Origin: Prevotella sp.
GTDB taxonomy: Bacteria > Bacteroidota > Bacteroidia > Bacteroidales > Bacteroidaceae
DNA length: 58,505 nucleotides
Assembly: GCA_017477435.1 (NCBI GenBank)
Contig: JAFUVV010000042.1
Coordinates: forward strand, 1 to 58,505
Direction of reading: 5' to 3'
Below the pieces are notes generated by a model. It had not been told where the DNA came from. It saw only the letters and a program-made list of their open reading frames with translations, and did not search any database. Positions 12,913-55,142 of this stretch are shown here, one piece after another (position 1 is the stretch's first letter; each line of letters begins with the position of its first letter). Position numbers and translations under genes: made by a program.

Positions 12913-12996
12913 AAATTTTGCTAGCAAAATTTCTGGTAAAGAGCCCATCTAATGTCATTAAAGAGGCTTCCTATTCGAAATTTTGCTAGCAAAATT
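12913..12996. repeat. Two perfect palindromes flanking two 22-bp family-A repeat units
   Basis: A 20-bp perfect palindrome built on TTTTGCTAGCAAAA lies at 12913-12932, and an 18-bp version of the same sequence at 12979-12996. Their centres are 65 bp apart, close to three 22-bp steps. Between them sit two degenerate 22-bp units (12935-12956 and 12957-12978) of the family whose consensus is ATTAAAGAGCCTTTCTAATGC plus C, also present at 18236-18323 and 55055-55142. Confidence 0.85.
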
Positions 12997-13049
12997 ATTT
13001 ATTGCTGGTTTTATTAGTTGCAAAAGTTGATGCGCATGAAGGCTGTGGA

Positions 13050-13157
13050 GCATTTGTGAGTGGCGCAAGAAGGATGGAGTAGGGAAAGACGAGGCATTTG
13101 TGAGTAGCGCAAGAAGGATGGAGTAGGGAAAGGCGAGGCATTTGTGTGGGGTGCAAG
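13050..13157. repeat. 44-bp tandem repeat
   Basis: Two nearly identical 44-bp units (13050-13093 and 13094-13137) and the start of a third (13138-13157). Each begins GCATTTGTGAGT and contains AAGAAGGATGGAGTAGGG; the first two differ at only a few positions. A degenerate unit precedes them. The period is twice the 22-bp period of the other arrays, but the sequence is unrelated. Noncoding. Confidence 0.85.
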
Positions 13158-13220
13158 GAAAAGGGATGAGCGGAAGAATCGGTTTTGGGCAGGTAATTAT
13201 GGGGCAGTTGGCTTATGGGC

Positions 13221-13250
13221 AAAAAAAATGGGGCTCCGCCGAGTCCCAAT
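13221..13250 (-). terminator. Rho-independent terminator on the minus strand
   Basis: Read on the minus strand this is a GC-rich hairpin (GGGACTC, loop GGCG, GAGCCCC, one mismatch) followed by eight T (13228-13221). It lies about 115 bp beyond the stop of the minus-strand gene at 13364 and could end that transcript or a short separate RNA starting near 13285. Confidence 0.65.
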
Positions 13251-13283
13251 CTTTGTTAACCTTAAATCTAATACCATGAAAAA

Positions 13284-13322
13284 CACGATGCAAAGGTAGG
13301 TGTTTTTGCATCGTGCTGCAAC
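13284..13322 (-). promoter_or_regulatory. Hairpin overlapping a possible minus-strand promoter
   Basis: An 11-bp inverted repeat (CACGATGCAAA at 13284-13294, TTTGCATCGTG at 13305-13315) with a 10-nt loop. Its left arm overlaps TACCTTTG on the minus strand (13298-13291), a match to the Bacteroidetes -7 box, with TTGC as a partial -33 box 19 bp upstream (13321-13318). A start near 13285 would give an RNA of about 60 nt ending at the terminator at 13221. The same hairpin could instead be a 3' UTR structure of the upstream minus-strand gene. Confidence 0.4.
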
Positions 13323-13363
13323 TATTTTTGAATTCAATTGCTAATTTCTTTCCTTTTATTGAT

Positions 13364-16300
13364 TTACGTCAACTTCTGGCTGTCTGTGAGTACCACTCCT
13401 TCTTGTTTTTTCCCGTCCATCATGATTGTGAGTGGGTGGTCGAGCCGTACGTGGCGGAGGTATTTTGTCTCTTCTATGGCCTCCGTTGTATCGAGTAGTT
13501 CTTTTCGGAAGAAGCCGCTTCCCGTGTTTTCGTCGATAGTGAAGTATCCCACTCCGAAGGATGTCAGGTTCTGGAAGAAGTGCGTGCCCTGGCTTGGGTC
13601 GACGCGATAGTTCTTCAGTGCTGTCTCCACTATCAGTCTTGCTTGCGAGATGTGTGGCCACTTCACAGGTATGCCGAGCCACGAGTCGCTCGATCCCCAG
13701 CGTCCCGGGCCGATGAGAATGTATCCGCGTTTCTCTGCTGCAAACTGGCGGTTCATCTTTTCTATCTCTTCTGCGATGAGGGGGTTGTTCTGTGCGGAGA
13801 AGTTTTCGTCGGTCTTTACGTAGACAATATCTGTCACTTCGTCATTCACTCCGTGTCCGAGTGAGTTGTGCGAGCGTAGCAGACAACGTTCGTCGGCTAT
13901 CTGCGTGAGGTCTTCGTTGAGCACCTGCTTTGTGTCGACGATGGGCCTTATCTGCAGCAGATATAGTTCTCCGGTGCGGTCGTTGTTCAGGTTGCATGCG
14001 AGCTCAATCTCAACAGGTCGGCGCATGCTCTCTGCTCCGTGCTTCATCGACAGCTGCAGGAGTTCTGGTAGGGGGAACACTCCCTGCTGGAGTACGCCTG
14101 CGAAGGAGATGATCTTCCGTCCGCCCTCGTAGATGCCGTCGCGAATGACCTGGTCGTAGGGGTCGTAGGTAGTGGCGATGTAGTTGAGCGAGCGGTCGCG
14201 GTCGGCTTCCCTGACTTTCAGTTTCAATATATTGAATCCGTCGTCAACCTTGAAGTCGGTGCCCACGCGGTCGAGGTCGAGTGCATAGAACTGCGTCTGT
14301 GTCTCGCGCAGTGCGGTGTCGGTCTCGCTTGTCTGTAGCACCTGATGCGGATGGTATGGCGACACTCGCAGTGTCTGTCCGCCGTCGACGATGTATTTTC
14401 CGAGTCCGAGTGCGAGCGATGCTATGCCCTCTTCGGAGCGTTCGTCGCCGATGGGATAGTAGTTTATTGAGCGCAGTACTCCGCTGAAATTCGGGTAGTA
14501 GCGGTTGCCGTACTGATGTCCTACCACCTCTTGTAGTATGACGGCCATTTTCTCTTGGTCGATCACGTTGCTCGTGGCCGACATGTAGGTCTTCGAGTCG
14601 CGGTAGAACACCGACGCGTAGACGCCTTTTATGGCACATGCGAGCATGCGTAGCATGGCGTCGTGGTCGTCGAGATAGGGTATCATGTATGTGCTGTAGA
14701 CGCCTGCGTAGGGCTGGTAGTGGGCATCTTCGAGCAGCGACGACGAGCGCACGGCGATGGGTGAGCGTGTGGCGGCGAAGAAGGTGATGAAGTCTTCGAT
14801 GTATTCGTCGGGCAGCTGTGCCTGCAGGAAGTGTGAGAGGATTTCCTCGTCGGGGATGTCGCTCAGGGCGATGGGGTAGAGGTTGTTCTGCTCCATGAAC
14901 TGGTCGAAGATGTCGGTGCAGAGCACGACGGTCTTCGGTATCTGTACCTTCACTCCTTCATACTGCTGGAACTCCGGGTGCATCTTCACAATGTTGTCGA
15001 GGAAGGCCAGTCCGCGTCCCTTTCCTCCGAGCGATCCTTCGCCGATGCGTGCGAAGTGGGAGTAGGAGTCAAACTTCATTCGGTCGAACACAGCCACGAC
15101 TCCGATGTTCTTCATGTGGCGGTATTGTACTATGGCGTCGAAGATGATCTGGCGGTGTGCGTCGACGTCCTGCAGCTTGTGCCATGTGACGTCTTTCAAG
15201 AATTCCGACACGGGGAATATTGCTCTTGCCGAGAGCCAGCGACTCATGTGGTTGCGGGAGATGTGATAGAGCATCGATTCCCGTGGAATCTTGAAGATGT
15301 TGTCCTGCAGTTCTTTCAGCGAGCTTACGCGCATTACTTCTTCGTGTGTCTGCGGGTCGCGGAAAATGAAGTCGCCGAATCCCATGTGTTCTTCGAGGAT
15401 ATGCCGGAGGTCGAGGCTCATCTTCTTCGAGTTCTTGTCTACGAAGCGGAATCCTTCGGCTTCGGCCTTGGCGCGGTTGTCGGCCTCCGAGCTTTCCATG
15501 ATGAGCGGCACGTATTCGTTGTCGGCGCGTATGGCCCGCAGCAGTTTCAGTCCTGCCTCTGAGTCTTTCTCCACTTGGCTGCCATAGGTAGACTTCTCGG
15601 GTGATGATTTCATGGGGAACCTGACGTCGCTGATGACTCCGAGGACGTTCTGCGAATAGCGTTTATATACGTCGATTGCCTCCTCATAGCTGCGTGCGAG
15701 CACCACCTTCGGCCGTCCTCTCATGCGCAGTGTGGCGGCATGTCGGTTGAGAGCCTCGGTGGAGAATCTCTGGCTCTGCAGGAGGATATAGTTGTAGAGG
15801 TTGGGCAGTATGCTCGAGTAGAAGCGTATGCTGTCCTCCACGAGGAGTATCATCTGCACGCCACCCTCGCGGATGTCGTGCTCCAGGTTCATCTTGTCTT
15901 CGATGAGTTTTATGATCGAGAGGATGAGGTTTGTGTTTCCCAGCCAGCAGAACACGTAGTCGAATATCGACAAGTCTTCGTCTTCCATGCGCCGTGTTAG
16001 TCCGTGGGAGAATGGTGTGAGCACCACACAGTGTATGTCGGGGAACCGTGCCTTTATGCTCCGTGCGATGCTGAAGGCGTCGTTGTCGGCGTTGCCGGGC
16101 ATGCAGATGACGAGGTCGATGTTGGTCTTGCTGAGCACCTCCTCGGCCTCCTGCTCCGTGCTCACCTGCGTGAACGTAGGCGGATAGCGAAGGCCCAGCT
16201 CCATATACTCATTATATATCTTTTCCTCTATGCGGCCGTCGTCTTCGAGCATGAACGCGTCGTAGGGGTTTGCCACGATGAGTACGTTGTAGATGCGGCG

Positions 16301-16372
16301 CATCATTAGATTGACGAACGTCACATCCTTCAGTATGAATTTGTTCCACTGTTCTGGGATGTTGCTTCTCAT
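13364..16372 (-). CDS. Tandem receiver-like domains fused to a PEP/pyruvate-binding ATP-grasp domain
   Basis: A 1002-residue cytoplasmic protein. Residues about 27-160 form a degenerate receiver-like domain (NVLIVANPYDAF, then DLVICMPG). Residues about 173-330 form a second receiver with an acidic pair (LLVEDS), a candidate phospho-acceptor Asp249 (ISDVRFP) and Lys313 (FVDKN). Residues about 440-810 are a PEP synthase/PPDK N-terminal ATP-grasp domain with GGKGRGL, IAVRSSSLLEDA and the closing LLQIRP. No phosphohistidine or PEP-binding domain follows, only a C-terminal region of about 190 residues that I do not recognise. It is therefore not a complete PEP synthase; phosphotransfer under response-regulator control is an inference. 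It lies 38 bp after the GH172-like gene, possibly co-transcribed. Confidence 0.8.
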   Translation of the reverse strand: MRSNIPEQWNKFILKDVTFVNLMMRRIYNVLIVANPYDAFMLEDDGRIEEKIYNEYMELGLRYPPTFTQVSTEQEAEEVLSKTNIDLVICMPGNADNDAFSIARSIKARFPDIHCVVLTPFSHGLTRRMEDEDLSIFDYVFCWLGNTNLILSIIKLIEDKMNLEHDIREGGVQMILLVEDSIRFYSSILPNLYNYILLQSQRFSTEALNRHAATLRMRGRPKVVLARSYEEAIDVYKRYSQNVLGVISDVRFPMKSSPEKSTYGSQVEKDSEAGLKLLRAIRADNEYVPLIMESSEADNRAKAEAEGFRFVDKNSKKMSLDLRHILEEHMGFGDFIFRDPQTHEEVMRVSSLKELQDNIFKIPRESMLYHISRNHMSRWLSARAIFPVSEFLKDVTWHKLQDVDAHRQIIFDAIVQYRHMKNIGVVAVFDRMKFDSYSHFARIGEGSLGGKGRGLAFLDNIVKMHPEFQQYEGVKVQIPKTVVLCTDIFDQFMEQNNLYPIALSDIPDEEILSHFLQAQLPDEYIEDFITFFAATRSPIAVRSSSLLEDAHYQPYAGVYSTYMIPYLDDHDAMLRMLACAIKGVYASVFYRDSKTYMSATSNVIDQEKMAVILQEVVGHQYGNRYYPNFSGVLRSINYYPIGDERSEEGIASLALGLGKYIVDGGQTLRVSPYHPHQVLQTSETDTALRETQTQFYALDLDRVGTDFKVDDGFNILKLKVREADRDRSLNYIATTYDPYDQVIRDGIYEGGRKIISFAGVLQQGVFPLPELLQLSMKHGAESMRRPVEIELACNLNNDRTGELYLLQIRPIVDTKQVLNEDLTQIADERCLLRSHNSLGHGVNDEVTDIVYVKTDENFSAQNNPLIAEEIEKMNRQFAAEKRGYILIGPGRWGSSDSWLGIPVKWPHISQARLIVETALKNYRVDPSQGTHFFQNLTSFGVGYFTIDENTGSGFFRKELLDTTEAIEETKYLRHVRLDHPLTIMMDGKKQEGVVLTDSQKLT

Positions 16373-16410
16373 TCTATTGTCTGCTATTTATACTTTTCAC
16401 TCTTTACTTT

Positions 16411-18036
16411 TCACTTTTTCAGGTCGCCGTACCAGAAATATGAGTTGCTTACGTCTATCTGTCCCATCGACCATCCTTCTATCTCGAAGTTGAACTTCAT
16501 GCCTTTTCGGAATGTCATGGTGTCGAGCAGTCTTACTCTCTGCCACGTCATCCATCCGCGGTTGCCCTTCACGTCGTCCACTCGCGGTACACCGCCGTAG
16601 GGTGTCAGCATGGTTGGCACCGGGGGCGACCATGAGCAGTTGTAGTAGTCTTCTGTCCCTGTGCCGTGGTATGATGGGAAGCGGTCGTCGTCTATCCATA
16701 TCTTCTCGTCGCCCTCGCCATACCATTCCTTCCAGTAGTTGTCGTCGGTGTCGTCGGTGCGTGCTCTCAGCCTGTTGTTCGCTGCAAGGACGTCGCCTAC
16801 GTACACCCCTCGCCCTCGTATCGTGGCGAAGTTCCATTCATACACTTCGAGCGTGTTGAACTTGTTGCTTACGCTGACGGTCTGCTCCTCGTGGCCTGAG
16901 GCGTGGAAGTAGAGTGTGTTCGGCGTGCGGGCGTTGCGGTCGGTGATTATCTCCACGTCGCCTGCGAACGGCACCTCGCCCTGACACTTGAACCTCACTT
17001 CGGCCTTCTGTCGGAACGGCATTATCCATCGGCTGTGCATTGTCCCCGCGCCATCGCAGTCGGTGTACCAGCCTTTCAGCTCTGCGCCATCCCTTCCTCC
17101 GGCGAAGAAGTCGCACAGTGGGACATCTACACACTGCGTTCCGTCGAAGAGTATCTGTATTTTAGTCTTGTTCATGACGTCGGCATAATGCTGTCGTGCC
17201 TCATCGCTGAGTCGGAGGTTTATCCCGTATATCGCTGCATTCCGGCGGTTTATCGTCAATGAGTTGGTCCCTGTCATCTTTGCCTTCTTAACCTTCCCCT
17301 TTCCGTATGGCCTGGGATTGAGCAGCTGTACATTCACCTTCTCCATTTTTGTGCGACATTGTTCCATCTCCTCGAGCGTGAACGACCGCACTGCCGTATT
17401 CGCCTCATATCGACGGAAGCCTACCTGATAATAGCGCACAATTCTTAGTTCCGTATCGCCGTCCTCGAGTGTTATCTTCAACGACCGCGCGTATGGCATT
17501 GGCAGATAGCTGGTGTTTCCGCCGCGGTCGTGGGTGGCGGTGCTATATCGCGAGTGGTTGAACATCAGACCTTTGCCCATAGGAATCGGGAACATGTTCA
17601 GGTCGAAAGCCGGTATGACGACGCTCGCTTCCTGCTCACCGTCGAAGTAGAACCTCAGCGTGCCCTGCTTGTCGCTCGTCGTTATCCACAGCCGTGTTAC
17701 TGCTCCGGGCCCTTCCTCGTCGAAGAGTACGCGCTCCGTGCGGCCATTATTCTGCTCAGTGCGAATAAATCCCCGTCCGTCCTCGTTGCCATACCACCCA
17801 GGCACGTCGGGAGCAACCGAGCGGCGGTCGTAGCTGGTCGTCTGAGCAGTCTGGTAGAACGGAGCAGGAAACTCGGTGACAGCCCGGCGGTCCATCATCT
17901 CTTCGAGAAGCGATGATAGCGAGATGGGGTTCGACGGGCTTCCTGGCTTTTGCGACCTGCGGCTTGTAGCATTGCCCGATGAAAAGAACAGGGCAAGAAC
18001 GACAAACAATAAGAAACGATGACAGTTGTGTTGCAT
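16411..18036 (-). CDS. DUF2961 (GH172-type) secreted glycoside hydrolase
   Basis: A 541-residue protein with a signal peptide (MQHNCHRFLLFVVLALFFSSGNA). The family is recognised from GPGAVTRLWITT, LRFYFDGEQ, NRGGNTSYLPMPYA-like segments and the C-terminal FPSYHGTGTEDYYNCSW, characteristic of DUF2961, now glycoside hydrolase family 172, some members of which act on fructose- or arabinofuranose-containing sugars. The substrate here cannot be read from the sequence. The frame is open upstream to 18237, but the ATG at 18036 starts a clean signal peptide and follows a -7-like box at 18062-18055. It is 38 bp upstream of the receiver/ATP-grasp gene on the same strand. Confidence 0.8.
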   Translation of the reverse strand: MQHNCHRFLLFVVLALFFSSGNATSRRSQKPGSPSNPISLSSLLEEMMDRRAVTEFPAPFYQTAQTTSYDRRSVAPDVPGWYGNEDGRGFIRTEQNNGRTERVLFDEEGPGAVTRLWITTSDKQGTLRFYFDGEQEASVVIPAFDLNMFPIPMGKGLMFNHSRYSTATHDRGGNTSYLPMPYARSLKITLEDGDTELRIVRYYQVGFRRYEANTAVRSFTLEEMEQCRTKMEKVNVQLLNPRPYGKGKVKKAKMTGTNSLTINRRNAAIYGINLRLSDEARQHYADVMNKTKIQILFDGTQCVDVPLCDFFAGGRDGAELKGWYTDCDGAGTMHSRWIMPFRQKAEVRFKCQGEVPFAGDVEIITDRNARTPNTLYFHASGHEEQTVSVSNKFNTLEVYEWNFATIRGRGVYVGDVLAANNRLRARTDDTDDNYWKEWYGEGDEKIWIDDDRFPSYHGTGTEDYYNCSWSPPVPTMLTPYGGVPRVDDVKGNRGWMTWQRVRLLDTMTFRKGMKFNFEIEGWSMGQIDVSNSYFWYGDLKK

Positions 18037-18054
18037 TTGAACAGTTTTATGTCG

Positions 18055-18084
18055 CAAATATAAGAAAAAATACAGACAAACAAG
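18055..18084 (-). promoter_or_regulatory. Probable promoter of the GH172-type gene
   Basis: On the minus strand TATATTTG (18062-18055) matches the -7 box. The best -33 candidate, CTTG at 18084-18081 with an 18-bp spacer, is imperfect. Transcription would start near 18049, some 13 nt before the chosen ATG. Confidence 0.5.
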
Positions 18085-18235
18085 AATCGGGAGGTGTTTT
18101 TGCGTAAAAAAACGTGCGTGAAACATTTTTTTGGTGTTCTCGGCGGTGGTCTTATTTGTACTCAGTCCATTTAAGAAAAATGGGGAAAATAGAGAAAAAA
18201 ATGTATCGCCGAGGGTGGAAAAATGCCCTTTTTTC

Positions 18236-18323
18236 ATTAAAGAGCCTCTTTGACGAGGTCAACCCAATGGGTTAATGCCATTAAAGAGCCTTTCTAATGC
18301 CATCAAAGAGGCTTTCTACCGAG
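18236..18323. repeat. 22-bp family-A repeat array, four units
   Basis: Four consecutive 22-bp units at 18236, 18258, 18280 and 18302. The third is the clearest copy (ATTAAAGAGCCTTTCTAATG plus CC); the second is the most divergent and holds CCCAATGGG. Units contain dyad symmetry (CATTA and TAATG arms, AAAG and CTTT within). The array lies in the divergent gap between the GH172-type gene and gdhA. Confidence 0.85.
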
Positions 18324-18590
18324 GCAAAAAAAGGCCATTTTTTGCCTTTTTTGGTGCAAAAACGGGTGTTTTTCCGATGTCGTGGCGACCTGTCTCTTGG
18401 TAACCGGCTGCATTACAGTGTTTTATGAAAAGCGCTCAAAACTCGCGTATTTTCGGCCGCGCGATTTCTATTTTGAAATTATCGCACTCTCGTGCGTTAA
18501 GAGAAGTTAAAAACAGCCTTTTTCGGGGGGTGTTTTCATAGCCCTTTTTCCGTGAAACAATTTGCTTTTTTATAAATTTCCGGCGTTTTA
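18324..18590. other. Rest of the divergent gap upstream of gdhA
   Basis: Together with the array before it and the promoter after it this makes a 668-bp gap between divergent genes. It contains poly-T and poly-A stretches with a GGCC-centred inverted repeat (AAAAAAGGCCATTTTTTGCC near 18326) but no open reading frame with coding character. Confidence 0.5.
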
Positions 18591-18622
18591 TTTGGAGGTG
18601 ACAAAGAAAAGACTTACTTTTG
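18591..18622 (+). promoter_or_regulatory. Promoter of gdhA
   Basis: TTTG at 18591-18594 and TACTTTTG at 18615-18622 are separated by 20 bp, an exact Bacteroidetes promoter. The start near 18628 leaves a leader of about 77 nt before the gdhA ATG at 18705. Confidence 0.82.
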
Positions 18623-18704
18623 TATAATCTTTTGACAATAAGCCGTCAGGCATATAGTTTTCAAACAATTAAAATAACAGATCTACAAAAAAGACAATGC
18701 TACT

Positions 18705-20042
18705 ATGAATGTAGAGAAAATCATGCAAGACCTGGAGCGCAAGCATCCGGGCGAGTCAGAGTATTTGCAGGCAGTGCGCGAAGTGCTGCTCTCTATCGAA
18801 GACGTTTACAACCAGCACCCCGAGTTTGAGAAGGCCAAGCTCATCGAGCGCCTTGTCGAGCCCGAGCGGATAATCACGTTCCGCGTGCCATGGACCGATG
18901 ACAACGGCGAAGTGCACGTCAACCTTGGTTACCGCGTGCAGTACAATAGCGCCATTGGCCCATATAAGGGCGGACTGCGTTTCCATCCGTCGGTGAACCT
19001 CTCGATCCTGAAGTTCCTCGGATTCGAGCAGACATTCAAGAACGCTCTCACCACCCTGCCCATGGGCGGCGGCAAGGGAGGATCAGACTTCTCCATCCGC
19101 GGTCGTTCCGACGCCGAGGTGATGCGCTTCTGCCAGGCATTCATGACAGAGCTCTATCGCCATATCGGTCCCGACGAAGACGTGCCGGCAGGCGACATTG
19201 GAGTCGGCGGACGCGAGATAGGCTACCTCTTCGGGATGTATAAGAAGCTGACCCACCAGTTCCAGGGCGTGCTCACCGGCAAGGGCCTCGAGTTCGGCGG
19301 CTCACGCATACGTCCGGAAGCCACAGGCTACGGCGCCATATACTTCGTCAACCACATGCTCTCCACCCGCGGTGAAGAGATAAAGGGCAAGACCATCGCC
19401 ATCTCCGGATTCGGCAACGTGGCATGGGGCGCTGCCAAGAAGGCGACGGAGCTCGGAGCAAAGGTCGTGACCATCAGCGGTCCCGACGGATACATCTACG
19501 ATCCAGCCGGCCTCGACGAAGAGAAGATTGCCTATATGCTCGAACTCCGTGCCTCTGGCAACGATGTCTGTCAGCCATACGAGGAAGAGTTCCCCGGTTC
19601 GAAATTCTTCCCCGGCCATAAGCCATGGGAGCAGAAAGCCGACATCTACATGCCATGCGCTACCCAGAACGAGCTCAACGGCGAAGATGCCGACCACATC
19701 CTGGCCAACAATCCTATCTGCGTGGCCGAGGTGTCGAACATGGGCTGCACGGCTGAGGCTGCCGAGAAGTTCGTAGCAACGAAGACCCTCTTTGCCCCTG
19801 GCAAGGCTGTAAACGCCGGCGGAGTGGCAACATCGGGACTGGAGATGACGCAGAACTCGATGCGACTGAGCTGGAGCAATCAGGAAGTAGACGAGAAACT
19901 ACACTATATAATGTCGTCGATTCATGAGCAGTGCGTGAAGTATGGCACCGAAGCCGACGGATATATCGACTACGTGAAAGGCGCAAATATCGCCGGATTC
20001 ATGAAAGTGGCCAACGCCATGATGGCGCAGGGCATTGTCTAA
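18705..20042 (+). CDS. gdhA: Glutamate dehydrogenase, NADP-type small hexameric form
   Basis: A 445-residue enzyme interconverting 2-oxoglutarate plus ammonia and glutamate. Conserved elements: GYRVQYNSAIGPYKGGLRFH and the catalytic-lysine block TLPMGGGKGG (residues about 122-131), PAGDIGVGGREIGY, GGSRIRPEATGYG and the nucleotide-binding loop SGFGNVAWG. Length matches the 450-residue hexameric class, which in Bacteroidetes is usually the ammonia-assimilating enzyme; the coenzyme preference is inferred from this class. The next gene, rlpA-like, starts 15 bp later, so both may share the promoter at 18591. Confidence 0.95.
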   Translation: MNVEKIMQDLERKHPGESEYLQAVREVLLSIEDVYNQHPEFEKAKLIERLVEPERIITFRVPWTDDNGEVHVNLGYRVQYNSAIGPYKGGLRFHPSVNLSILKFLGFEQTFKNALTTLPMGGGKGGSDFSIRGRSDAEVMRFCQAFMTELYRHIGPDEDVPAGDIGVGGREIGYLFGMYKKLTHQFQGVLTGKGLEFGGSRIRPEATGYGAIYFVNHMLSTRGEEIKGKTIAISGFGNVAWGAAKKATELGAKVVTISGPDGYIYDPAGLDEEKIAYMLELRASGNDVCQPYEEEFPGSKFFPGHKPWEQKADIYMPCATQNELNGEDADHILANNPICVAEVSNMGCTAEAAEKFVATKTLFAPGKAVNAGGVATSGLEMTQNSMRLSWSNQEVDEKLHYIMSSIHEQCVKYGTEADGYIDYVKGANIAGFMKVANAMMAQGIV

Positions 20043-20057
20043 CGAAACTGAAAGCGC

Positions 20058-20684
20058 GTGAGAAAGGAAATAGTCTTATCACTTTTAGCTATAATACTCA
20101 TGTGGGGCTCTGCCAGTCTGCACGCACAGTCGCAGACAGGCAAAGCCTCTTATTATGCTAAAAAGTTCATTGGCCGGCGTACGGCAAGCGGCGAGCGACT
20201 CCATCGCGACAGCCTCACTTGCGCCCACCTGAAGTATCCTTTCGGCACGCGACTGAAGGTGATAAATCCTGCCAACGGCAAAGAAGTCATCGTGCGTGTG
20301 AACGACCGAGGCCCATATCACCGCGGGAGAATAATAGATCTCTCTTGGGGAGCAGCTCGCGAGCTGGGCATACTGGCCCAGGGAATAGCGATGGTGAGGG
20401 TAGAAGTGGTACACGGCGACGATAACGTGCCCTATCGCATCGACGAGAAACTCGAGCTCGATATACCCGATTTCGAAATCTATGAGCCCATGCTGAAGTT
20501 CGACGACGATTGGGAGGGAATGGTGCCACAGCTCAATCTGCCCGAAGTGCCAATGACTACGGTGGGAAACGAAGATACGAAGGACGAAAAGACGATGACG
20601 AAGGACGAAAAGACGATGACGAAGGACGAAAAGACGATGACGAAGGACGAAAAGACGAAAGGACGAAAGACTAAGAAACGATGA
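20058..20684 (+). CDS. RlpA-like double-psi beta-barrel septal protein with a repeat tail
   Basis: A 208-residue exported protein: signal peptide in residues 1 to about 23, then the RlpA fold with [37 protein letters not shown] and [18 protein letters not shown]. RlpA proteins bind or cleave peptidoglycan lacking stem peptides at the division site; the catalytic pair (His and Asp of the DRGP block) looks present. The start is a GTG at 20058; no ATG precedes the signal peptide. The C-terminal 40 residues are a tandem repeat of TKDEKTM encoded by exact 21-bp units, a charged, probably disordered tail. No SPOR domain is present. Confidence 0.82.
20577..20660. repeat. 21-bp coding tandem repeat in the RlpA-like gene
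   Basis: Four copies of a 21-bp unit beginning ACGAAGGACGAAAAGACGAT at 20577, 20598, 20619 and 20640, identical except at the end of the last. Each encodes seven residues (TKDEKTM), so copy-number changes keep the frame. Related sequence continues past the stop codon at 20684. Confidence 0.93.
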
Positions 20685-20761
20685 CGAAGGACAAAACGAC
20701 AGAGAGTCGGAAACAAAAGTAAATAACGTTTAACTATTTAACATTTAACATATTAACATAT

Positions 20762-21679: not shown

Positions 21680-21702
21680 TATCTTAGCCGGTTTAGAAAC
21701 CA

Positions 21703-21740
21703 ATCAGAGGGAACTCCTTGTGGGGTTCCCTCTGATGTTT
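21703..21740. terminator. Terminator between convergent genes
   Basis: A perfect 12-bp stem (21703-21714 with 21725-21736), 10-nt loop, then GTTTTAT. It lies 23 bp after the EEP gene stop and 45 bp after the stop of the minus-strand lipoprotein gene, so it may serve both. Confidence 0.85.
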
Positions 21741-22714: not shown

Positions 22715-22805
22715 TTAGGTTTTAGGTTTTAAGTTTTAAGTTTTTAGGGCTTTGGTTTATGAGGTTTTTAGGTTTTTGGTTTTGGTTTTTTGGGGCTTTG
22801 AGGAT
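22715..22805. repeat. T/G-rich low-complexity stretch
   Basis: Irregular repeats of GTTTTA, GGTTTTT and GGTTTTGG on the plus strand, with almost no C. It lies between the stop of the six-hairpin glycosidase gene and the promoter of the lipoprotein gene. No fixed period and no stem-loop is evident. Confidence 0.6.
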
Positions 22806-24801: not shown

Positions 24802-24831
24802 ATATTTCCTTGTTTTTATCTTCTGTATTCA

Positions 24832-24963
24832 CTATCAAGGCTAGATAGCGATGCTGTCAAAGCCAGATAGTGATACTATCAAAGCCAGATAGCGATGCTG
24901 TCAAAGCCAGATAGCGACACTATCAAAGCCAGATAGTGACAATGTCAAAGTCAGACACTGTCG
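24832..24963. repeat. 22-bp family-B repeat array, six units
   Basis: Units start at 24832, 24854, 24876, 24898, 24920 and 24942, exactly 22 bp apart. The core is CTATCAAAGCCAGATAG, whose ends CTATC and GATAG are inverted repeats, followed by a 5-bp variable link (CGATG, TGATA, CGACA, TGACA). The last unit is degraded. It fills the gap between two minus-strand genes. The same core occurs in opposite orientation at 47773-47904. Confidence 0.93.
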
Positions 24964-42097: not shown

Positions 42098-42474
42098 AAA
42101 AACTCAAAGAAATTTGTAAAAATATGCTTGTGTACGCGCACAACACAAATATAGCTGAATCGGAAAGGTGAATAAAAGTAAATTGAAAGTTTGGGAGGCG
42201 GACTCGGATAATGGGGATGGGAGAAGTACAGAGACTTTGTACTCTCAGTACATGGGCTTTGTACTCGGAGTACATGGCTTTTGTACTCGCAGTACACGGG
42301 CCTTGTATTGTTGGCGGATAGCATGGAGGGTCGTGCTGCCTGCCGTGGCTGCCGGAGCCAGGGCGGGTGGTTTATTTGCAATGTCGGTTTTGCATTTTCG
42401 TCTTATCGGGGGGCAGAGGAGCAGCGTTTAACTCTTTTTATACCTCTTTTATATTTAAATAATGTTATAGTGTC
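42098..42474. other. Divergent gap between the susC and aldolase promoters
   Basis: No credible gene. It contains a second -7-like box for the minus strand (42146-42153), the 22-bp family-C array with GTACTC dyads (42236-42301) and a GC-rich stretch (42302-42420) with no recognisable feature. Confidence 0.55.
42236..42301. repeat. 22-bp family-C repeat array, three units
   Basis: Units at 42236, 42258 and 42280, exactly 22 bp apart. Each contains TGTACTCnnAGTACA or a one-base variant, a nearly perfect dyad, followed by TGGGC-type linkers. Degenerate copies flank both ends. The array sits between the divergent susC and aldolase promoters. Confidence 0.9.
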
Positions 42475-47644: not shown

Positions 47645-47700
47645 CTTAGATATATTGGTTAGTTATAATGTGTCTCAGATATGATGTTTAATGTTGAGAG

Positions 47701-47731
47701 CAAAATTATAAATTATTTTCATAGAAGCAAA
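47701..47731 (-). promoter_or_regulatory. Promoter of the DUF3857 gene pair
   Basis: TTTG (47731-47728) and TAATTTTG (47708-47701), 19 bp apart on the minus strand. Start near 47695, leader about 50 nt. Confidence 0.82.
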
Positions 47732-47772
47732 ACAAAACGTCTTTTTTTTCTTTTGCTCCGGCAATTGTGTTG

Positions 47773-47904
47773 CTATCTGGCTTTGACAGTGTTGCTATCT
47801 GGCTTTGACAGTGTTGCTATCTGGCTTTGACAGTGTTGCTATCTGGCTTTGATAGTGTCGCTATCTGGCTTTGATAGTCCTGCTGTCTGTGCTTGATACT
47901 GCGC
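47773..47904. repeat. 22-bp family-B repeat array, six units, opposite orientation
   Basis: Units at 47773, 47795, 47817, 47839, 47861 and 47883, 22 bp apart. Core CTATCTGGCTTTGATAG (CTATCTGGCTTTGACAG in the first three) is the reverse complement of the core in the array at 24832-24963. The last unit is degraded. Between the promoter of the DUF3857 pair and the next minus-strand gene. Confidence 0.93.
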
Positions 47905-48009
47905 CCTGAACAGTAGCCTTCTTCTCTGTGATGGCACGGCTGTCCTACGCGAAGAAATGTCCTCGCGCGCGTAATATATTATAATGTATAGGTGAAAAGT
48001 GGTCTGTCC
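47905..48009. other. Spacer between the 22-bp array and the membrane-protein gene
   Basis: This is the remaining part of a 365-bp gap (47645-48009). It has a CGCGCGCG-like stretch at about 47964 and is otherwise featureless; no gene or terminator is evident. Confidence 0.4.
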
Positions 48010-48687: not shown

Positions 48688-48716
48688 ATTTGATATAGTG
48701 TATCAGATAGTTGTGT

Positions 48717-49763
48717 TTATTCGAGCGGTTCCACGTCGAGGCGCTCGATGTTTCCCGTGAGAGGATGGAGCGAGATGTGTGTTGTGACTTTCTTTCCGAA
48801 CAGTGTGCCGCTGATCATCTCCACTCGTCCGAACTGTGCTGCATACATCTCGCTGGTGAGCACGGTGTTGTTGCCGTCGGCAATCTTCACGCGTATCTTC
48901 CCCGGCAGGGTGACGTTGAGGCCGATGTCTTCCTTCGACTTCTTCCCGTCGTCGGCACTTGCCGGAAGTGGAGCGATGGTCTGCAGGTCTTCTATGCTGA
49001 TGTAGAACGGTCGGCCAGAGAAGTCGTCGGCGTCCACCACACCGAAGTGGCGTGAGAAGCGGAACAGAAGGTCGCGGTCGGTCTGTTGCTCGGGTATGTA
49101 GCTCAGTATCACCTCTGTAGTGTCTTTCTGCGTGCTTCCCTCGAACACCTGCATGAGTGCTTTCTCCTGAGTGTCGAGGTTTACAAGCATAATGCGCAAC
49201 TGCTCACCGTCCTTAGGCATGAAGTCGGCCTCGCCGCGCGACAGTTGGTTGCGGCTGTCGCGTATGTCGTAGATCTCCTGCGCTATGAGCTGCGCCATCT
49301 TTGCATGGCTGCCGGCGCTCAGTATGTCCTGACTCATGAAGTCGTGGGGGTTGAGAGCCTTCGGCTGTGGCTTCGCTACGAATGGCTCCGGTTGTGCGAC
49401 AGGCTTGCCGTTGTCGTTGATGGCCAGCAGCACCCCGTTCTCGTCTTGAGTGAGGTTGATGATGCTGTGCTTCTTGTCTATGAGTAGCTTGTAGCATCGG
49501 GCGGTGTCGGGGATGGCGTCCTGCGACAGGCTGATGCCCACGATGTTGTATTCCGTCGACGCCTCCTTCGCTGCTTCCTGCTTCATGTAGAGCATCGAGT
49601 AGCCGGCAAGCTCGCCAGGCTCGAATGTTGTCTTCTCCACGAGGAGGGCTATTCTGAGTGTTGTCTTCGGGAGTGAATATCTGATACCCTCGGCATCGGT
49701 TTGTGCGTTGGCGTTGATGGTCATCAGTAGTGCCGTTGCTACGGCGGCAAATGTTTTTTTCAT
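48717..49763 (-). CDS. DUF4831-family secreted protein
   Basis: A 348-residue exported protein (signal peptide MKKTFAAVATALLMTINANA). It matches the DUF4831 pattern of Bacteroidetes: IRYSLPKTTLRIALLVEKTTFEPGELAGY near the start and GLNVTLPGKIRVKI toward the end. Function unknown; the family is thought of as an envelope protein. It lies between nnrD (65 bp upstream) and the membrane protein, all minus-strand. Confidence 0.78.
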   Translation of the reverse strand: MKKTFAAVATALLMTINANAQTDAEGIRYSLPKTTLRIALLVEKTTFEPGELAGYSMLYMKQEAAKEASTEYNIVGISLSQDAIPDTARCYKLLIDKKHSIINLTQDENGVLLAINDNGKPVAQPEPFVAKPQPKALNPHDFMSQDILSAGSHAKMAQLIAQEIYDIRDSRNQLSRGEADFMPKDGEQLRIMLVNLDTQEKALMQVFEGSTQKDTTEVILSYIPEQQTDRDLLFRFSRHFGVVDADDFSGRPFYISIEDLQTIAPLPASADDGKKSKEDIGLNVTLPGKIRVKIADGNNTVLTSEMYAAQFGRVEMISGTLFGKKVTTHISLHPLTGNIERLDVEPLE

Positions 49764-49828
49764 TTTATGATTTGTAGTTTATAATATGCTTTCAGTGGTG
49801 AGGGCAGATGAGGGTAAGGGTGAGAGCC

Positions 49829-51346
49829 TCAGTCGTTTAATCGTTTGAATGCTTGTGGCAGATATTTTATTATATCGCTTGCCATGAGGCTTTCTTTTCC
49901 TATTTCCTTTGCTGCGAGGTCGCCTGCGAGTCCGTGGAGATACATTCCCAGCATGCATGCCTCGGCTTGTGCATAGCCACGTGCGAGGAGTGCGGTGATA
50001 ATGCCTGTTAGTACATCTCCACTTCCTGCCGTTGCCATGCCAGAGTTGCCGGTGGAGTTGAAGATCACTTTCCCGTCGGGCATGCACAGTGCGCTGTAGT
50101 GTCCTTTCAATATGACGTATCCCTTCACTTTCTCTGCCAGGTCACGTGCCCGGCTGAGTTGTTCGTAGCCTCCGTTCGACTGCATTCCTGTGAGTCGGTC
50201 GAGTTCGGCGGGGTGGGGGGTCATAATGATGTCGCGTGGCAGCTGTTGCATCCATGCGCGGTGGTTGCCCAGGATGTTCAGTGCATCGGCATCGACGACG
50301 ATGGGGCACTGCGCACGGCGTATCTGTGCTATGAGTGCGATGGCAGTGTTCTCATGCTGTCCGATACCCGGGCCTATTCCGATGGCGTCGTAGTCCTCGG
50401 TGGGCAGTGCCTCCGAGAAGTATGTTTCCTCGTGGTCTATTTTCAGTATTGCCTCGGGTATGGTGGTCTGCATGATGGCATAGTTGCGTCGTGGTGTGGC
50501 GATGCTCACTTTTCCTGCTCCTGATCGCATGCATGCTCTCGATGTGAGTATTGCTGCTCCTGCCATGCCGTAGCTTCCGGCCACGATGAGTGCGTGGCCC
50601 ATCATGCCTTTGTGGACGAAGTCGTTGCGCGGGAGCAGTAGGCGTCTGATGTCGTTTTCCTCCACGATGCGGTACTGCGTGTCGGTCTTGGCGATGTACT
50701 CCTGCGAGAGGCGTATGTCGAGTATGCGCAGTTGTCCGAGATACTGTTGATTGTCGGCGAAGAGCATCGACAGCTTTTTCTGCTGTATGGTCAGTGTCAG
50801 GTCGGCCCTGATGATGTTTGGCTTTATGTTGTAGGTGTTGTCTTCGGTCATGAGTCCCGAAGGCATGTCGATGCTTACTACCTTTGCCGGCGACTGGTTG
50901 ATATATTTTACGAGCGAAGCGAATCCTCCGGCGAGCGGTTTGTTGAGTCCTGTGCCGAAGAGTCCGTCGACAACGACCATGTTTTTCTCGAGCACCGGTG
51001 GGTCGAAGTTCACGCTTATCTCCTTGAAGTCGGCCACGCGCTTCTTTTCCAGGAGCCGTGTCTTGTTGGCCAGGCATTCGTCGGAGAGGTGGTCGTGGAT
51101 GTTGAAGAGATATACAGAAACCTTATATCCCTGGTCTGCCAATATGCGTGCCACAGCCAGTGCATCGCCGCCGTTGTTGCCTGGACCGGCGAACACCACC
51201 ATCGGTGTCGTCGTCTGCCATATGCCGGCAATCACTTGTGCGATGGCTTTTGCCGCACGTTCCATCAGGTCGAGCGATGTTATGCGCTCGTGGTCGATGG
51301 TATATCGGTCGAGATCATTTATCTGCTGACTTGTGAAAATTTTCAT
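49829..51346 (-). CDS. nnrD: Bifunctional NAD(P)HX epimerase and ADP-dependent dehydratase
   Basis: A 505-residue fusion that repairs hydrated NADH and NADPH. Residues 1 to about 215 are the epimerase (YjeF N-terminal) domain with FAGPGNNGGDALAVARIL and VDGLFGTGLNKPL. Residues about 225-500 are the ribokinase-like dehydratase with VDADALNILG, TPHPAELDRL and GSGDVLTGII. Both catalytic parts look complete. It is divergent from hpt across a 93-bp gap containing possible -7 boxes on both strands. Confidence 0.93.
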   Translation of the reverse strand: MKIFTSQQINDLDRYTIDHERITSLDLMERAAKAIAQVIAGIWQTTTPMVVFAGPGNNGGDALAVARILADQGYKVSVYLFNIHDHLSDECLANKTRLLEKKRVADFKEISVNFDPPVLEKNMVVVDGLFGTGLNKPLAGGFASLVKYINQSPAKVVSIDMPSGLMTEDNTYNIKPNIIRADLTLTIQQKKLSMLFADNQQYLGQLRILDIRLSQEYIAKTDTQYRIVEENDIRRLLLPRNDFVHKGMMGHALIVAGSYGMAGAAILTSRACMRSGAGKVSIATPRRNYAIMQTTIPEAILKIDHEETYFSEALPTEDYDAIGIGPGIGQHENTAIALIAQIRRAQCPIVVDADALNILGNHRAWMQQLPRDIIMTPHPAELDRLTGMQSNGGYEQLSRARDLAEKVKGYVILKGHYSALCMPDGKVIFNSTGNSGMATAGSGDVLTGIITALLARGYAQAEACMLGMYLHGLAGDLAAKEIGKESLMASDIIKYLPQAFKRLND

Positions 51347-51406
51347 ATCGAAGGCAAAAATACAAAATTAAAGTAAATAAGTAGCAATGTTTTGACATAA
51401 TTTTTG

Positions 51407-51414
51407 TAAATTTG
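51407..51414 (+). promoter_or_regulatory. Possible -7 box of hpt
   Basis: TAAATTTG matches the -7 consensus 26 bp before the hpt ATG. No TTTG lies 19-21 bp upstream, so support is partial. Confidence 0.45.
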
Positions 51415-51439
51415 TGGCCGAAATACCAAAAAGCATCCT

Positions 51440-51979
51440 ATGAAGAGAGTAAAATTAGGTGACAAGACGTTTGAAGTCTCTATTCCCGAGGCCGAGATTA
51501 AAGAGCGCGTCCGCGTTGTGGCAGAGAAGATTAACCACGACATGGCAGGCAAGAATCCATTGCTGCTGGCAGTGCTCAATGGATCGTTCGTTTTTGCTGC
51601 CGACCTGATGAGAATGCTCACCATTCCCTGCGAAATATCGTTTGTGAAACTGGCTTCCTATCAGGGCACCACGTCGACAGGCAAGATATCGGAAGTGATA
51701 GGCATCAACGAGAACCTGACAGGCCGAACGGTGATAATCGTAGAAGATATCGTCGACACCGGCCTGACGATGAAGCGTATGGTGGAGTCGATAGGCACAC
51801 GCAACCCCGCGTCGGTGCATATCTGTTCGTTGCTCGTGAAGCCCGACAAGCTGCAGGTGGACCTCAACATTGAATATGCCGCAATGCATATACCCAACGA
51901 TTTCATAGTGGGCTATGGTCTCGACTACGATCAGATGGGGCGTAACCTCCCAGAGATATATACTGTGGTCGACGAATGA
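51440..51979 (+). CDS. hpt: Hypoxanthine phosphoribosyltransferase
   Basis: A 179-residue purine-salvage enzyme that converts hypoxanthine and guanine to IMP and GMP using PRPP. The PRPP-binding loop VIIVEDIVDTGLTM (residues about 97-110) is unmistakable, with LAVLNGSFVFAADL and VGYGLDYDQMGRNLP also matching type I purine phosphoribosyltransferases. adk follows 30 bp downstream on the same strand, so adenine and guanine nucleotide metabolism genes are grouped. Confidence 0.93.
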   Translation: MKRVKLGDKTFEVSIPEAEIKERVRVVAEKINHDMAGKNPLLLAVLNGSFVFAADLMRMLTIPCEISFVKLASYQGTTSTGKISEVIGINENLTGRTVIIVEDIVDTGLTMKRMVESIGTRNPASVHICSLLVKPDKLQVDLNIEYAAMHIPNDFIVGYGLDYDQMGRNLPEIYTVVDE

Positions 51980-52009
51980 AAATATATGTTTAACTTAATA
52001 ATGAGATAA

Positions 52010-52582
52010 ATGAAGAATATTGTTATTTTCGGTGCCCCTGGTTCAGGAAAAGGCACCCAGAGCGACAAGTTGATTGAGAAATACGGTTTCGGACACATCT
52101 CCACCGGCGACGTGCTGCGTGCCGAGATAAAGAACGGAACAGAACTTGGTAAGACCGCCAAAAGCTTTATCGATCAGGGACAGCTCATCCCCGACGAACT
52201 CATGATCAGTATCCTCGCCAGCGTCTACGACAGCTTCGGCAAGGAGCATGCTGGTGTGATCTTCGACGGATTCCCCCGCACCATCCCGCAGGCTGAAGCC
52301 CTGAAGACGATGCTTGCCGAGCGCGGACACTCCGTGGCAGCAATGATAGAGCTCGACGTGCCTGAGGACGAGTTGATGACCCGTCTCATCAAGCGAGGCA
52401 AAGAGAGCGGTCGCTCCGACGACAACGAAGAGACAATAAAGAAACGCCTCGACGTCTACCACAACCAGACGGCTCCGCTTGTGGAGTGGTATGAGAAAGA
52501 GGGCCTTCGCCGACACATCGACGGCCTCGGCGACCTTGAGAGAATCTTCGCCGACATCTGTAAAGTAATAGACAATATTTAG
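52010..52582 (+). CDS. adk: Adenylate kinase
   Basis: A 190-residue adenylate kinase that balances AMP, ADP and ATP. The P-loop is [11 protein letters not shown] (residues 7-17), followed by [28 protein letters not shown] and [20 protein letters not shown]. The LID is short (no zinc-finger cysteines), the usual small form. In many bacteria adk lies between secY and map; here it is about 45 kb away, next to hpt. Confidence 0.96.
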
Positions 52583-52668
52583 TTCATCCCACCCATTCCG
52601 CCTTTCCTGTGAAAGGGGCACGCCCCCCAAACCGACACAGGAGAGACGGGATGGGCTTTTTTGTCGTT

Positions 52669-53841
52669 ATGGCTGAAAGTAATTTCGTAGACTATGTGAA
52701 GATCTACTGCCGCTCAGGAAAGGGCGGCCGCGGTTCCATGCACCTCCATCGTGCGAAGTACCAGCCCCTCGGCGGTCCCGACGGCGGCGACGGCGGACGA
52801 GGTGGTAACGTCTACCTGCGTGGCAACCACAACTACTGGACCCTGCTCCACCTGAAATACAATCGCCACGTCTATGCCGAGCACGGTGGCGACGGAGGAA
52901 AAGACAAGTGTCACGGCACGGACGGAAAGGACCAGTACATTGACGTGCCATGCGGTACGGTGGTCTACAATGCCGACACAGGCAAATACGTCTGCGACGT
53001 CACCTACGACGGACAGGTGGTGATGCTCCTCAAAGGCGGTCGCGGAGGACTGGGAAACTTCCAGTTCCGTACGGCTACAAACCAGGCCCCACGCTATGCT
53101 CAGCCAGGAGAACCCATGCAGGAGATGACCATCATCCTCGAATTGAAGCTCCTTGCCGACGTAGGGCTCGTTGGATTCCCCAATGCAGGAAAGTCGACAC
53201 TGCTCTCCTCGCTGTCGAGTGCACGGCCGAAAATAGCCAACTATCCCTTCACCACCCTCGAGCCCAGTCTCGGTATCGTGGCCTATCGCGACCAGCAGTC
53301 GTTTGTAATGGCCGACATACCGGGAATCATCGAAGGCGCTGCCGAAGGTAAGGGGCTGGGACTACGTTTCCTCCGACACATCGAGCGCAACTCGCTGTTG
53401 CTCTTCATGGTGCCCGGCGATACCGACGACATAAAGCGCGAGTACGAAATCCTCCTCGACGAGCTCCGACGCTTCAATCCCGACCTGCTCGACAAGCATC
53501 GCGTGCTTGCCGTGACCAAGTGCGACCTGCTCGACGACGAACTCATCGACATGCTCCGCGAATCATTGCCCGACGACCTGCCCGTGGTGTTCATCTCGGC
53601 AGTGACAGGCTACGGCATACAGCAGTTGAAAGACGTGCTGTGGAGCGAACTCAACAACGAGAGCAACAAGTTGCAGGACATCGTTGCCGAGGAACGAATC
53701 GTACACCGCGACAAAGACATGACCCGCTTCTCCACCGAAATGGCTGCCGAGGGCGAGGACATGGAAATAGAAACCGACGACGAAAATGCCGACAGCGACG
53801 ACGACTTCGGCGATTTCGACGGCGAAGAAGAATTTGTATGA
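52669..53841 (+). CDS. obgE: GTPase Obg/CgtA
   Basis: A 390-residue Obg GTPase acting in 50S assembly and stress signalling. The glycine-rich Obg fold (residues 1 to about 158; [28 protein letters not shown]) is followed by the G domain (G1 [10 protein letters not shown]3 [10 protein letters not shown]4 TKCDLLDD). In place of the OCT domain there is a highly acidic tail ([25 protein letters not shown]). The frame is open to 52609; the ATG at 52669 is the family start. Its TGA overlaps the ATG of the next gene by 4 bp. Confidence 0.95.
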
Positions 53842-54977
53842 TAAACAGAATGATCAACATACTGCGCACACTGGCTGTTGCCTCGCTGCTCGTCGTGACC
53901 CTCACGGCGTGGGCACCGGTGAAGAATGAGTTCACTCCTGCCGAGCAACAGTCGATCAGCGTAGAGACCCCGGGACTCTTCGACAAGAGCAAGACAATAC
54001 GTATCGATATGTCTCTGCTCCGCGACGAAGAATATTCCTTCCCGCTACCCGTCGGTAAGATTGCGCCTGGGAAAGACAACAATATTCTCATCACCACCAC
54101 CGAAGGCGACGCCGTGAAGGCGATGTTCGACGGATGTGTGCGTCTGTCGCGCAAGCACCCGGAATTCGGTAACATCATCGTGGTGCGTCATGCCAACGGA
54201 CTCGAGACCGTCTATGGCAATAATGCGCAGAACCTTGTCAAAGTGGGCGACGTCGTGAAGGCGGGGCAGACAATTGCCATCGTCGGACAAAAGGACGAGA
54301 AGGTGTACCTCGAGTTTGCCATAATGATCAACGGCGGAAGGATAAACCCCGAGACGGTGCTCGAATACAACAGCCATCGCCTCCGTCCACGTACCCTCGT
54401 TTGCACGAAGATGGAGCGCGGTGTAGACATCAAGCTCGAGGGTGGCAATGGCAAGGCGGCGATAGTCGAGCGCGAGGCAGCCCTCGACCCGAACCCCTTC
54501 GCCAAGGGCAACCTCTACAAGTGGGACCTCAGGAAGATGCCCGAGGGATCGTGGGACTACCCGCTCCACGGATGCAAGGTGATAAGTCCGTTCGGAGGAA
54601 AGCGCCACCATGGCGGCGTAGACCTCAAGACGGTGCCTAACGATAGCATTCATGCTGCGTTCGACGGTGAGGTGGTGCGCTCAGGACCATTCTCCGGCTA
54701 CGGCAACTGTGTTATCATAAAGCACGCCAACGGCCTCGAGACGCTCTACAGCCACCAGTCGAGAAACCTCGTGAAGGTAGGCGAGAAAGTGAGGGCAGGC
54801 CAGGTGATCGGACTCACGGGACGCACAGGACGCGCAACGACGGAGCATCTGCATCTGGAGACGAAGTTCAACGGCCGACGCTTCAACCCCATCATCCTCT
54901 TCGACCACAACAACCACTGCCTGCAGCAAGTGACTCTCACGTTCACCCGCAACGGCAATGTCAGTTCGTCGCGATAG
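53838..54977 (+). CDS. M23-family peptidase with a degenerate and an intact M23 domain
   Basis: A 379-residue exported protein (signal-like N-terminus [20 protein letters not shown]). Residues about 80-180 are an M23 fold lacking metal ligands. Residues about 245-350 are a second M23 domain with the full zinc site: His258 and Asp262 (RHHGGVDL) and the HLHLE motif (His337, His339). It would cleave peptidoglycan peptide bridges, the N-terminal copy acting as a support or binding domain. Its ATG at 53838 overlaps the obgE stop, so the two are translationally coupled. Confidence 0.85.
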
Positions 54978-55054
54978 CAGTAGGCAAAGCCCTGCCGGCA
55001 ATAAGATCGAAACAAGAAATGATGCTCTTGCAACCATCTGATACTCATGGTGTT

Positions 55055-55142
55055 ATTAAAGGGCCTTTCTAATGCCGTTAAAGAGCCCTTCTAATGCCGT
55101 TAAAGAGGCCTTTTGTTGCCATTAAAGAGCCCTTCTGTCAGA
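55055..55142. repeat. 22-bp family-A repeat array, four units
   Basis: Units at 55055, 55077, 55099 and 55121, exactly 22 bp apart, consensus (A/G)TTAAAGAGCCCTTCTAATG plus CC. It is the same family as the arrays at 12935 and 18236. It lies in the gap between the M23 gene and the first phosphodiesterase-PA14 gene, both plus strand. Confidence 0.9.

Follow-up and report, generated by a model that had tools for sequence, protein, structure and literature searches.

Palindromic arrays on a 22-bp grid in a Prevotella genome: mutually spaced intergenic elements whose sequence differs between lineages

The 58,505-bp stretch of DNA analysed here (the window, for short) is contig 12 (JAFUVV010000042.1) of a 62-contig, 2.32-Mb Prevotella assembly, GCA_017477435.1, estimated to be 78% complete, and it carries six arrays of short tandem repeats, belonging to three families that we call A, B and C, all stepping by 22 bp. 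This creates a puzzle: Why should repeats of different sequence keep an identical period? The initial annotation offered two answers, a shared physical constraint, such as two turns of the helix spacing a bound protein, or an amplification process that copies 22-bp units regardless of their sequence. The observation stands and is larger than first noted, having gained two properties absent from that annotation, namely a fixed copy number in family C and the mutual avoidance of elements along the chromosome. We consider it close to an even call that the arrays are double-stranded DNA sites for a putative oligomeric, sequence-specific protein, placed along the chromosome and having an architectural role.

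The period was surveyed in a sample of this genome comprising the window and, from each of 60 other contigs (C1 to C61 minus C12, with C62 left out), up to 20 kb from the start, 1,134,397 bp altogether; an array was scored where 18 or more of 22 positions matched at a shift, and periods of 17 to 30 bp were compared. The excess of period 22 in several families, in this genome and in its relatives, that had been proposed as the test of the first observation was duly found: period 22 has 115 arrays versus 1 to 28 for each other period (28 at 21 bp, 15 at 28, 12 at 24 and at most 11 at the rest), and it is also the top period in relatives. Markov control sequence gave no array at any of the 11 periods tested. 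By their half-site counts, 95 of the 115 arrays belong to family A (10), B (23) or C (62). A search for GGCTTT-N16-GGCTTT with one mismatch returned 114 + 77 matches in the genome versus 5 + 8 for the reversed control, while a sequence-blind scan for four dyads (arm 5, core 7) found 92 sets at 22 bp, a single one over all other periods from 18 to 30, and none in shuffled sequence; under two other settings the same scan found 64 and 91 sets at 22 bp versus 1 and 1 elsewhere. In the window, several places show period 22 or its multiple 44, whereas other periods come up once or twice. Tandem repeats of heptamers are also very frequent, with 92 places at period 7 and 55 at period 14 in the 1.13 Mb (for example, window 8174-8215 and 22715-22789); they form a second, separate repeat class that probably explains the peaks at 14, 21 and 28 bp.

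What, then, is held constant in these arrays? Aligned on their cores, the units are whole dyads, each consisting of a half-site, a 7-bp core, the inverted half-site and a spacer: AGTACA-TGGGCTT-TGTACT-NNN in family C, GCTATC-TGGCTTT-GATAGT-NNN in family B and approximately CATTAGA-AGGGCTC-TTTAATG-G in family A. The common design of families B and C, and more loosely of A, is a 17-bp dyad (5-bp half-sites around the 7-bp core) followed by a 5-bp spacer. Among the steps between chained dyads, 364 of 369 are 22 bp, a count that takes symmetric elements on both strands, just as the lists of dyad units include arrays registered on the opposite strand; the distance between half-site centres is alternately 12 and 10 bp, near one helical turn. 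The three families had been described as unrelated and as endowed with inverted symmetry throughout. Their half-sites do differ, but their cores are alike (GGCTTT / GGGCTT / GGGCTC), and the symmetry, pronounced in B and C, is weaker in A.

In family C, for which at most two mismatches in the 12 half-site positions were allowed, the sample holds 76 clusters, 73 with four dyads, two with three and one with two; all 73 of the four-dyad clusters are exactly 85 bp long, free of indels. At least 94% conservation is seen in 46 of the 48 half-site columns (the other two reach 93 and 83%), whereas core columns are 46-93% conserved and spacers are variable. The flanks show a weak, symmetric 8-bp motif, CCGGCnGC / GCnGCCGG, without covariation. 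Amplification of 22-bp units, the second of the two initial answers, would predict varying copy number, and a family fixed at four units in 73 of 76 clusters speaks against it.

The elements lie between genes and keep a distance from one another. According to rough codon-score gene calls (74.8% coding), none of the 62 C arrays overlaps a called gene, as compared with 1 of 23 for B, 0 of 10 for A and 1 of 20 for other arrays. Neighbouring C elements define 29 intervals, from 3,477 to 17,738 bp, of which none is below 3 kb versus 9.9 expected under random intergenic placement (0 of 2000 permutations); under a stricter null that allows a single element in any gap of 150 bp or longer, 5.97 such intervals are expected (P 0.0005; P 0.0135 for the coefficient of variation, CV). 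When B and C are taken together there are 101 elements, with 3 of 49 intervals below 3 kb versus 18.8 expected, and B avoids C (2 within 2 kb versus 6.06 expected, P 0.012); the two families behave as though they were one system.

Does the same geometry return with other sequences? The half-sites of family C are rare in the genus, occurring in 3 of 120 sampled genomes, this one included. In stretches of 37 relatives that were not picked for repeats (539 kb), 13 arrays have period 22, versus 11 at 21, 8 at 24, 2 at 20 and 1 at 23. When the 36 stretches that reach 500 bp were scanned for sets of four similar copies, period 22 gave 18 arrays, spread over 12 stretches, and no other period from 17 to 30 gave more than 6; the 18 include one 11-bp repeat (L161) and a few that are doubtful by eye (L152, L166). 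A strict dyad-only scan gave 1, 5 or 2 at 22 bp, depending on the setting, and none at other periods. The carriers of the commonest unit, among the 28 stretches listed, are mostly ruminant-gut assemblies of Prevotella or Prevotellaceae. Three relatives have elements whose half-sites are unrelated to those of this genome: G039 carries AAAAGSNTAGCTTTT (223 + 231 matches, control 1 + 1), G061, with a 2.69-Mb contig, carries CAAATTCGCCNAWWTTG (control 0), and G351 (a 2.73-Mb contig) has sets of four AAAG-N5-CTTT dyads (225 on each strand, control 0). An all-plus strand bias considered for G061 was dismissed on its full counts of 281 forward and 290 reverse matches. Eight of nine G039 and G061 elements checked are intergenic; one overlaps a called frame.

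Mutual spacing recurs in these genomes, as judged from the matches listed (about 1.0 Mb of G061, about 1.3 Mb of G351 and seven contigs of G039) and with nulls placed uniformly over contigs, coding DNA included. G039 has 46 clusters with a smallest interval of 5,210 bp and a CV of 0.50 versus 0.91. The first 1.01 Mb of G061 holds 51 clusters, 50 of which span at most four units; the 48 with at least two matches, a set that omits three isolated single matches and three matches beyond 1.0135 Mb, have a smallest interval of 6,835 bp. In the first 1.34 Mb of G351 there are 56 elements no closer than 7,631 bp (null mean minimum 420; maximum over 10,000 draws 3,182). Null minima for the three genomes are about 0.3-0.4 kb. 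Long intervals are weakly even in G061 and G351 (CV P 0.134 and 0.008); the strong signal is the missing short ones. A two-dyad AAAG/CTTT pattern, blind to genomes with other half-sites, occurs in 112 of 398 genus genomes versus 27 for the reversed control, with at least 10 forward matches in 50 genomes versus 3, while in the order sample both pattern and control occur in 5 of 295 genomes. Of the order genomes only G592, which belongs to another taxonomic family, has many: 16 matches of paired AAAG-N5-CTTT at the 22-bp step, their core being TTAGA/TCTAA, which may be the same design beyond the genus. Additional 22-bp palindromic arrays of other sequences are found in named assemblies at L142 7868-7982 and L122 224-314 (TTTATCAACGCGTTGGGACACC; GGCTAATGAGCTTGTCATTAGG).

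In the window itself, the six arrays and their 22-bp step are confirmed by direct reading and by Tandem Repeats Finder. They are as follows, with half-site pairs, out of five, given for successive dyads and with orthologues in the sister species RUG12886 (G399) where these are present:

12914..12996, no strand assigned: four dyads on the 22-bp grid, the outer ones AATTTTGCTAGCAAAAT-type palindromes and the inner two weak family-A dyads; pairs 4, 3, 2, 4.
18237..18319, no strand assigned: family-A element of four dyads, the second with different half-sites; pairs 4, 4, 4, 2.
24831..24959, minus strand: family-B element of six dyads, CTATC-N7-GATAG; pairs from 24832 are 5, 4, 5, 4, 5, 4.
42225..42309, plus strand: family-C element of four dyads, AGTACA-N7-TGTACT, 85 bp; pairs from 42226 are 5, 5, 5, 4; orthologous 85-bp element in RUG12886.
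47772..47900, plus strand: family-B element of five good dyads and a degenerate sixth; pairs from 47773 are 4, 4, 4, 5, 5, 3.
55056..55138, minus strand: family-A element of four direct copies with weak dyads; pairs 4, 4, 3, 2; orthologue in RUG12886.

The assignment of the first two arrays to family A is right in part. At 12935 it fits two A copies, but these are framed, in the same 22-bp register, by two palindromes of AATTTTGCTAGCAAAAT type, and an element resembling the whole is present in the sister-species locus L253; at 18236 it fits the A copies, but another palindrome (TCAACCCAATGGGTTAA) sits in phase inside. Members of A elements keep the 22-bp grid even so, including the unlike palindromes beside A copies at 12914-12996 and 18259. 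Of the window's elements, a dyad scan at 17 of 20 pairs registered those of B and C alone. As had been proposed, the arrays are not CRISPR-like (clustered regularly interspaced short palindromic repeats): their spacers are 3-5 bp, as opposed to unique spacers of about 25-40 bp.

RUG12886 is 80-97% identical to this genome, in pieces. Among seven C sites with both flanks available, five are common to the two genomes and exactly 85 bp in both; at the other two (L097) the intergenic DNA differs. By hand count, the five shared elements differ at 6 of 45 spacer positions, 5 of 140 core positions and 1 of 240 half-site positions, and at the 3% divergence of the flanks 7.2 stem changes would be expected versus the one seen (P 0.006). 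Most of these elements sit in stretches that are 96-97% identical, the rest of RUG12886 being about 80-93% identical, and hence they may have arrived with exchanged DNA. Stretches of about 94-97% identity are seen at the RUG12886 loci L240, L242 and L248, that of L240 within a contig otherwise 83-87% identical, which reflects either recent exchange between the sister species or mixed binning. RUG12886 retains the family-A array at 55056..55138, where several of the copies have changed in a similar way (CTAATG to TATATG or TATGTG). For five B arrays there is no B counterpart in that genome; both flanks are well aligned at one only (L067 10995), and near another, L051 17811, where flanks are poor, RUG12886 has an A-type element. 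In ten RUG12886 contigs that were not picked for C, 154 kb in all, there are four arrays of A type, no B and no C, a small sample which suggests that the dominant half-site may differ between the sister species.

How could one geometry be served by so many sequences? We infer a protein that reads the arrays as DNA. Each 17-bp dyad would bind one dimer, and the 22-bp step, about two helical turns, would align the dimers along a single helical face; the usual element would thus load four. Lying in intergenic DNA several kilobases apart, as expected of chromosome-organising sites, the elements could mark domain borders or serve as bridging or anchoring points, and not as gene-specific controls; their distribution is wide and spaced along the chromosome, as that of such sites is. 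Half-site sequence would drift, or be replaced, between lineages along with the protein while the geometry stays constant. The physical constraint of the initial annotation gains indirect support, since the 22-bp grid is kept while half-sites change between families and species, half-site centres lie 12 and 10 bp apart, and C stems bear no sign of RNA pairing. Extended to the whole genus, the proposal becomes a chromosome-organising system of Prevotella in which phased palindrome sets loading about four dimers each, every several to some tens of kilobases, would make up a grid of anchoring sites or domain borders, the recognition sequence turning over so fast that sister species can differ; this we hold as a tentative possibility, falling somewhat short of even.

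Other explanations have to be weighed, starting from the nature of the sites themselves. Because each unit can, on paper, be folded into a 6-bp stem closed by a 7-nt loop, and C arrays start and finish with whole stems, the arrays might act as RNA or single-stranded DNA hairpins, as decoys or as elements of mRNA stability or termination. Yet among 1752 stem pairs of family C there are 70 one-sided changes and no compensated one, a test of limited power given so few changes and only 0.7 double changes expected by chance; G.T mismatches are as frequent as A.C (22 versus 20), complementarity is below the permuted mean in all seven core and spacer tests, and a closing stem formed by the symmetric flanks was rejected (246 pairs versus 243.8 expected, P 0.43). 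No Rfam family matches the window at its arrays, and orientation and gene context show no clear bias. Lacking any excess of compensation, C stems fit protein sites on double-stranded DNA better than RNA hairpins, and the stem, core, spacer and flank tests, together with gene context and the 12/10-bp spacing of half-sites, favour a protein on double-stranded DNA; a hairpin function is hardly credible. Such sites might still be no more than the multi-site operators of a single global transcription factor, whose regularly spaced palindromes they resemble (for instance those of BarR; PMC10201364). However, 9 of the 51 C arrays with both neighbours in view lie between convergent genes (30 are in co-directional and 12 in divergent gaps, with 11 more at stretch ends), a mix resembling that of all gaps (260 co-directional, 74 divergent, 66 convergent), and avoidance of neighbours on a kilobase scale is not expected of operators, which makes this account very improbable too. 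There is no clear strand preference, and a relation to replication polarity was rejected on whole-stretch GC skew (23/24 and 14/12).

The main alternative is that the arrays are non-autonomous mobile repeats, similar to miniature inverted-repeat transposable elements (MITEs), which a transposase has spread, their spacing reflecting target immunity, whereby an element blocks insertions nearby, and their species-specific sequence reflecting separate bursts. This would suit the roughly 150 dispersed C copies extrapolated from 76 in 1.13 Mb, the lineage-specific sequence, the weakly symmetric ends, the similarity of G351 spacers between copies, as in recent copies, and the absence of one B array from an otherwise aligned RUG12886 site (L067 10995). 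Against it, the 73 C elements have no convincing target duplication (best P 0.010-0.012 among 768 offsets), even if old insertions could have lost it; the four-dyad geometry returns with unrelated sequence; the C element is present in the sister species too, at exactly 85 bp, at five of the seven sites with both flanks available; and the two-dyad C pattern has no match in IMG/VR, nor one B array in plasmids. We consider mobility unlikely, if the most serious of the rivals. A different origin for the spacing would be as a by-product, with recombination or selection removing copies that lie close together and the arrays being neutral minisatellites in all other respects: direct repeats do recombine, and neutral repeats are usually intergenic. 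This seems quite improbable to us, as exclusion would have to reach across 3.5-7.6 kb for short, diverged repeats, C copy number is constant without indels, and stems change less than spacers.

Several observations weigh against our own proposal of architectural protein sites. Four dyads are not universal: among 25 B clusters 15 span five units and 7 span six, and 44 of the 56 listed G351 elements bear an additional degenerate unit. In the other carriers of C half-sites clusters have 2-4 dyads (G398), 3 or 6 (G402) and 3-6 (G405), with four in 11 of 12 clusters in RUG12886, several loci in these genomes overlapping, so that independent elements are fewer than the counts. The three short B+C intervals are B-C pairs 1.1-2.6 kb apart; B-B avoidance is not significant alone (0 below 3 kb versus 1.8 expected, P 0.13); A clusters, under the ad hoc definition used for spacing and strand tests, show no avoidance of C (1 within 2 kb versus 1.9 expected, that one at 157 bp); and one of the three omitted single matches of G061 has an element 1.5 kb away. 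Mutual avoidance would equally be produced by a mobile repeat with target immunity. Strand counts lean to the opposite strand, short of significance (18:9 with 3 ties, P 0.12; 45:28, P 0.06), there is turnover of B and A arrays from one sister species to the other, and the compensation test has the limited power mentioned above. Moreover, no partner protein was found, Lrp-type candidates being the one family searched and none of those read fitting.

These candidates came from the likeness of the arrays to the sites of Lrp-type octamers, which also consist of several regularly spaced semipalindromes. Lrp/AsnC proteins were rejected on their recognition helix, SGAAIHQRIQKL, which is the same in G398, with GTACA half-sites, and in G039, G061, G379 and G351, with other half-sites; the Lrp proteins concerned are therefore unlikely readers. 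Of 36 matching frames 13 were read, and one of them (G351_a), being out of frame, was set aside; G405 gave two weak Lrp matches and no frame of Lrp size.

Where do these elements stand among known systems? Plasmid iterons and partition-site repeats are direct repeats near 22 or 11 bp that lie on the same helical face, at one locus per plasmid, while the Prevotella arrays occupy many chromosomal places. The matS sites of MatP, like other chromosome-organising sites, are short palindromes spread over the chromosome as single sites, unlike the present four-dyad arrays. Repetitive extragenic palindromes (REPs) and bacterial interspersed mosaic elements (BIMEs) are dispersed intergenic palindromes too; they differ from the Prevotella arrays, which have a fixed tandem geometry with all units in register and, in family C, no sign of covariation from pairing, the hairpin upheld by compensatory change in REPs being without a counterpart there (0 of 1752 pairs, at limited power). 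REPs are also mentioned in PMC8040213. According to PMC10201364, operators of BarR, a member of the Lrp family, have four to five regularly spaced 15-bp semipalindromes, with 15-17-bp spacers termed two helical turns; the protein is an octamer, and the DNA is wrapped. The likeness is in the regular spacing of several semipalindromes; the difference is that BarR sites are operators at target genes, and that the Lrp recognition helices read in Prevotella are alike even where half-sites differ between species. The nearest described element found is BrickBuilt of Porphyromonas gingivalis, a MITE or minisatellite of intergenic, dispersed tandem 23-nt repeats without spacers, given the keyword 'species-specific repeat'; strain ATCC 33277 has 19 copies, and the element includes a leader and a tail subunit and ends in small inverted repeats (PMC4596501). 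Both are intergenic, dispersed tandem repeats; the Prevotella elements differ in their 22-bp unit, their frequent four palindromes, their mutual avoidance and their change of sequence between species. Searches of the open-access literature, which leave subscription papers and preprints mostly outside their scope, listed no paper describing such elements in Prevotella in its title or the opening of its abstract.

Sites defined by geometry and mutual distance, whose sequence turns over from one species to the next, would be new in kind among chromosomal elements. If they do organise the chromosome, Prevotella would offer many natural experiments, with one architecture written in varying DNA words, and a match between recognition residues and half-sites could lead to the partner protein; if they are mobile instead, they would represent a repeat that measures distance.

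Three minor features of the window deserve mention. A 44-bp unit, repeated 2.5 times at 13050-13157, adjoins the first element, and about 220 bp from this element lies the window's sole Rfam match, to RF04319 (Bacteroidetes FopS paralogous small RNA), at 13218-13286 on the minus strand with 74.9 bits (gathering threshold 56). Finally, a 21-bp repeat of 6.4 copies at 20566-20700 overlaps the 3' end of the open reading frame 20058-20684, and perhaps encodes a 7-residue protein repeat.

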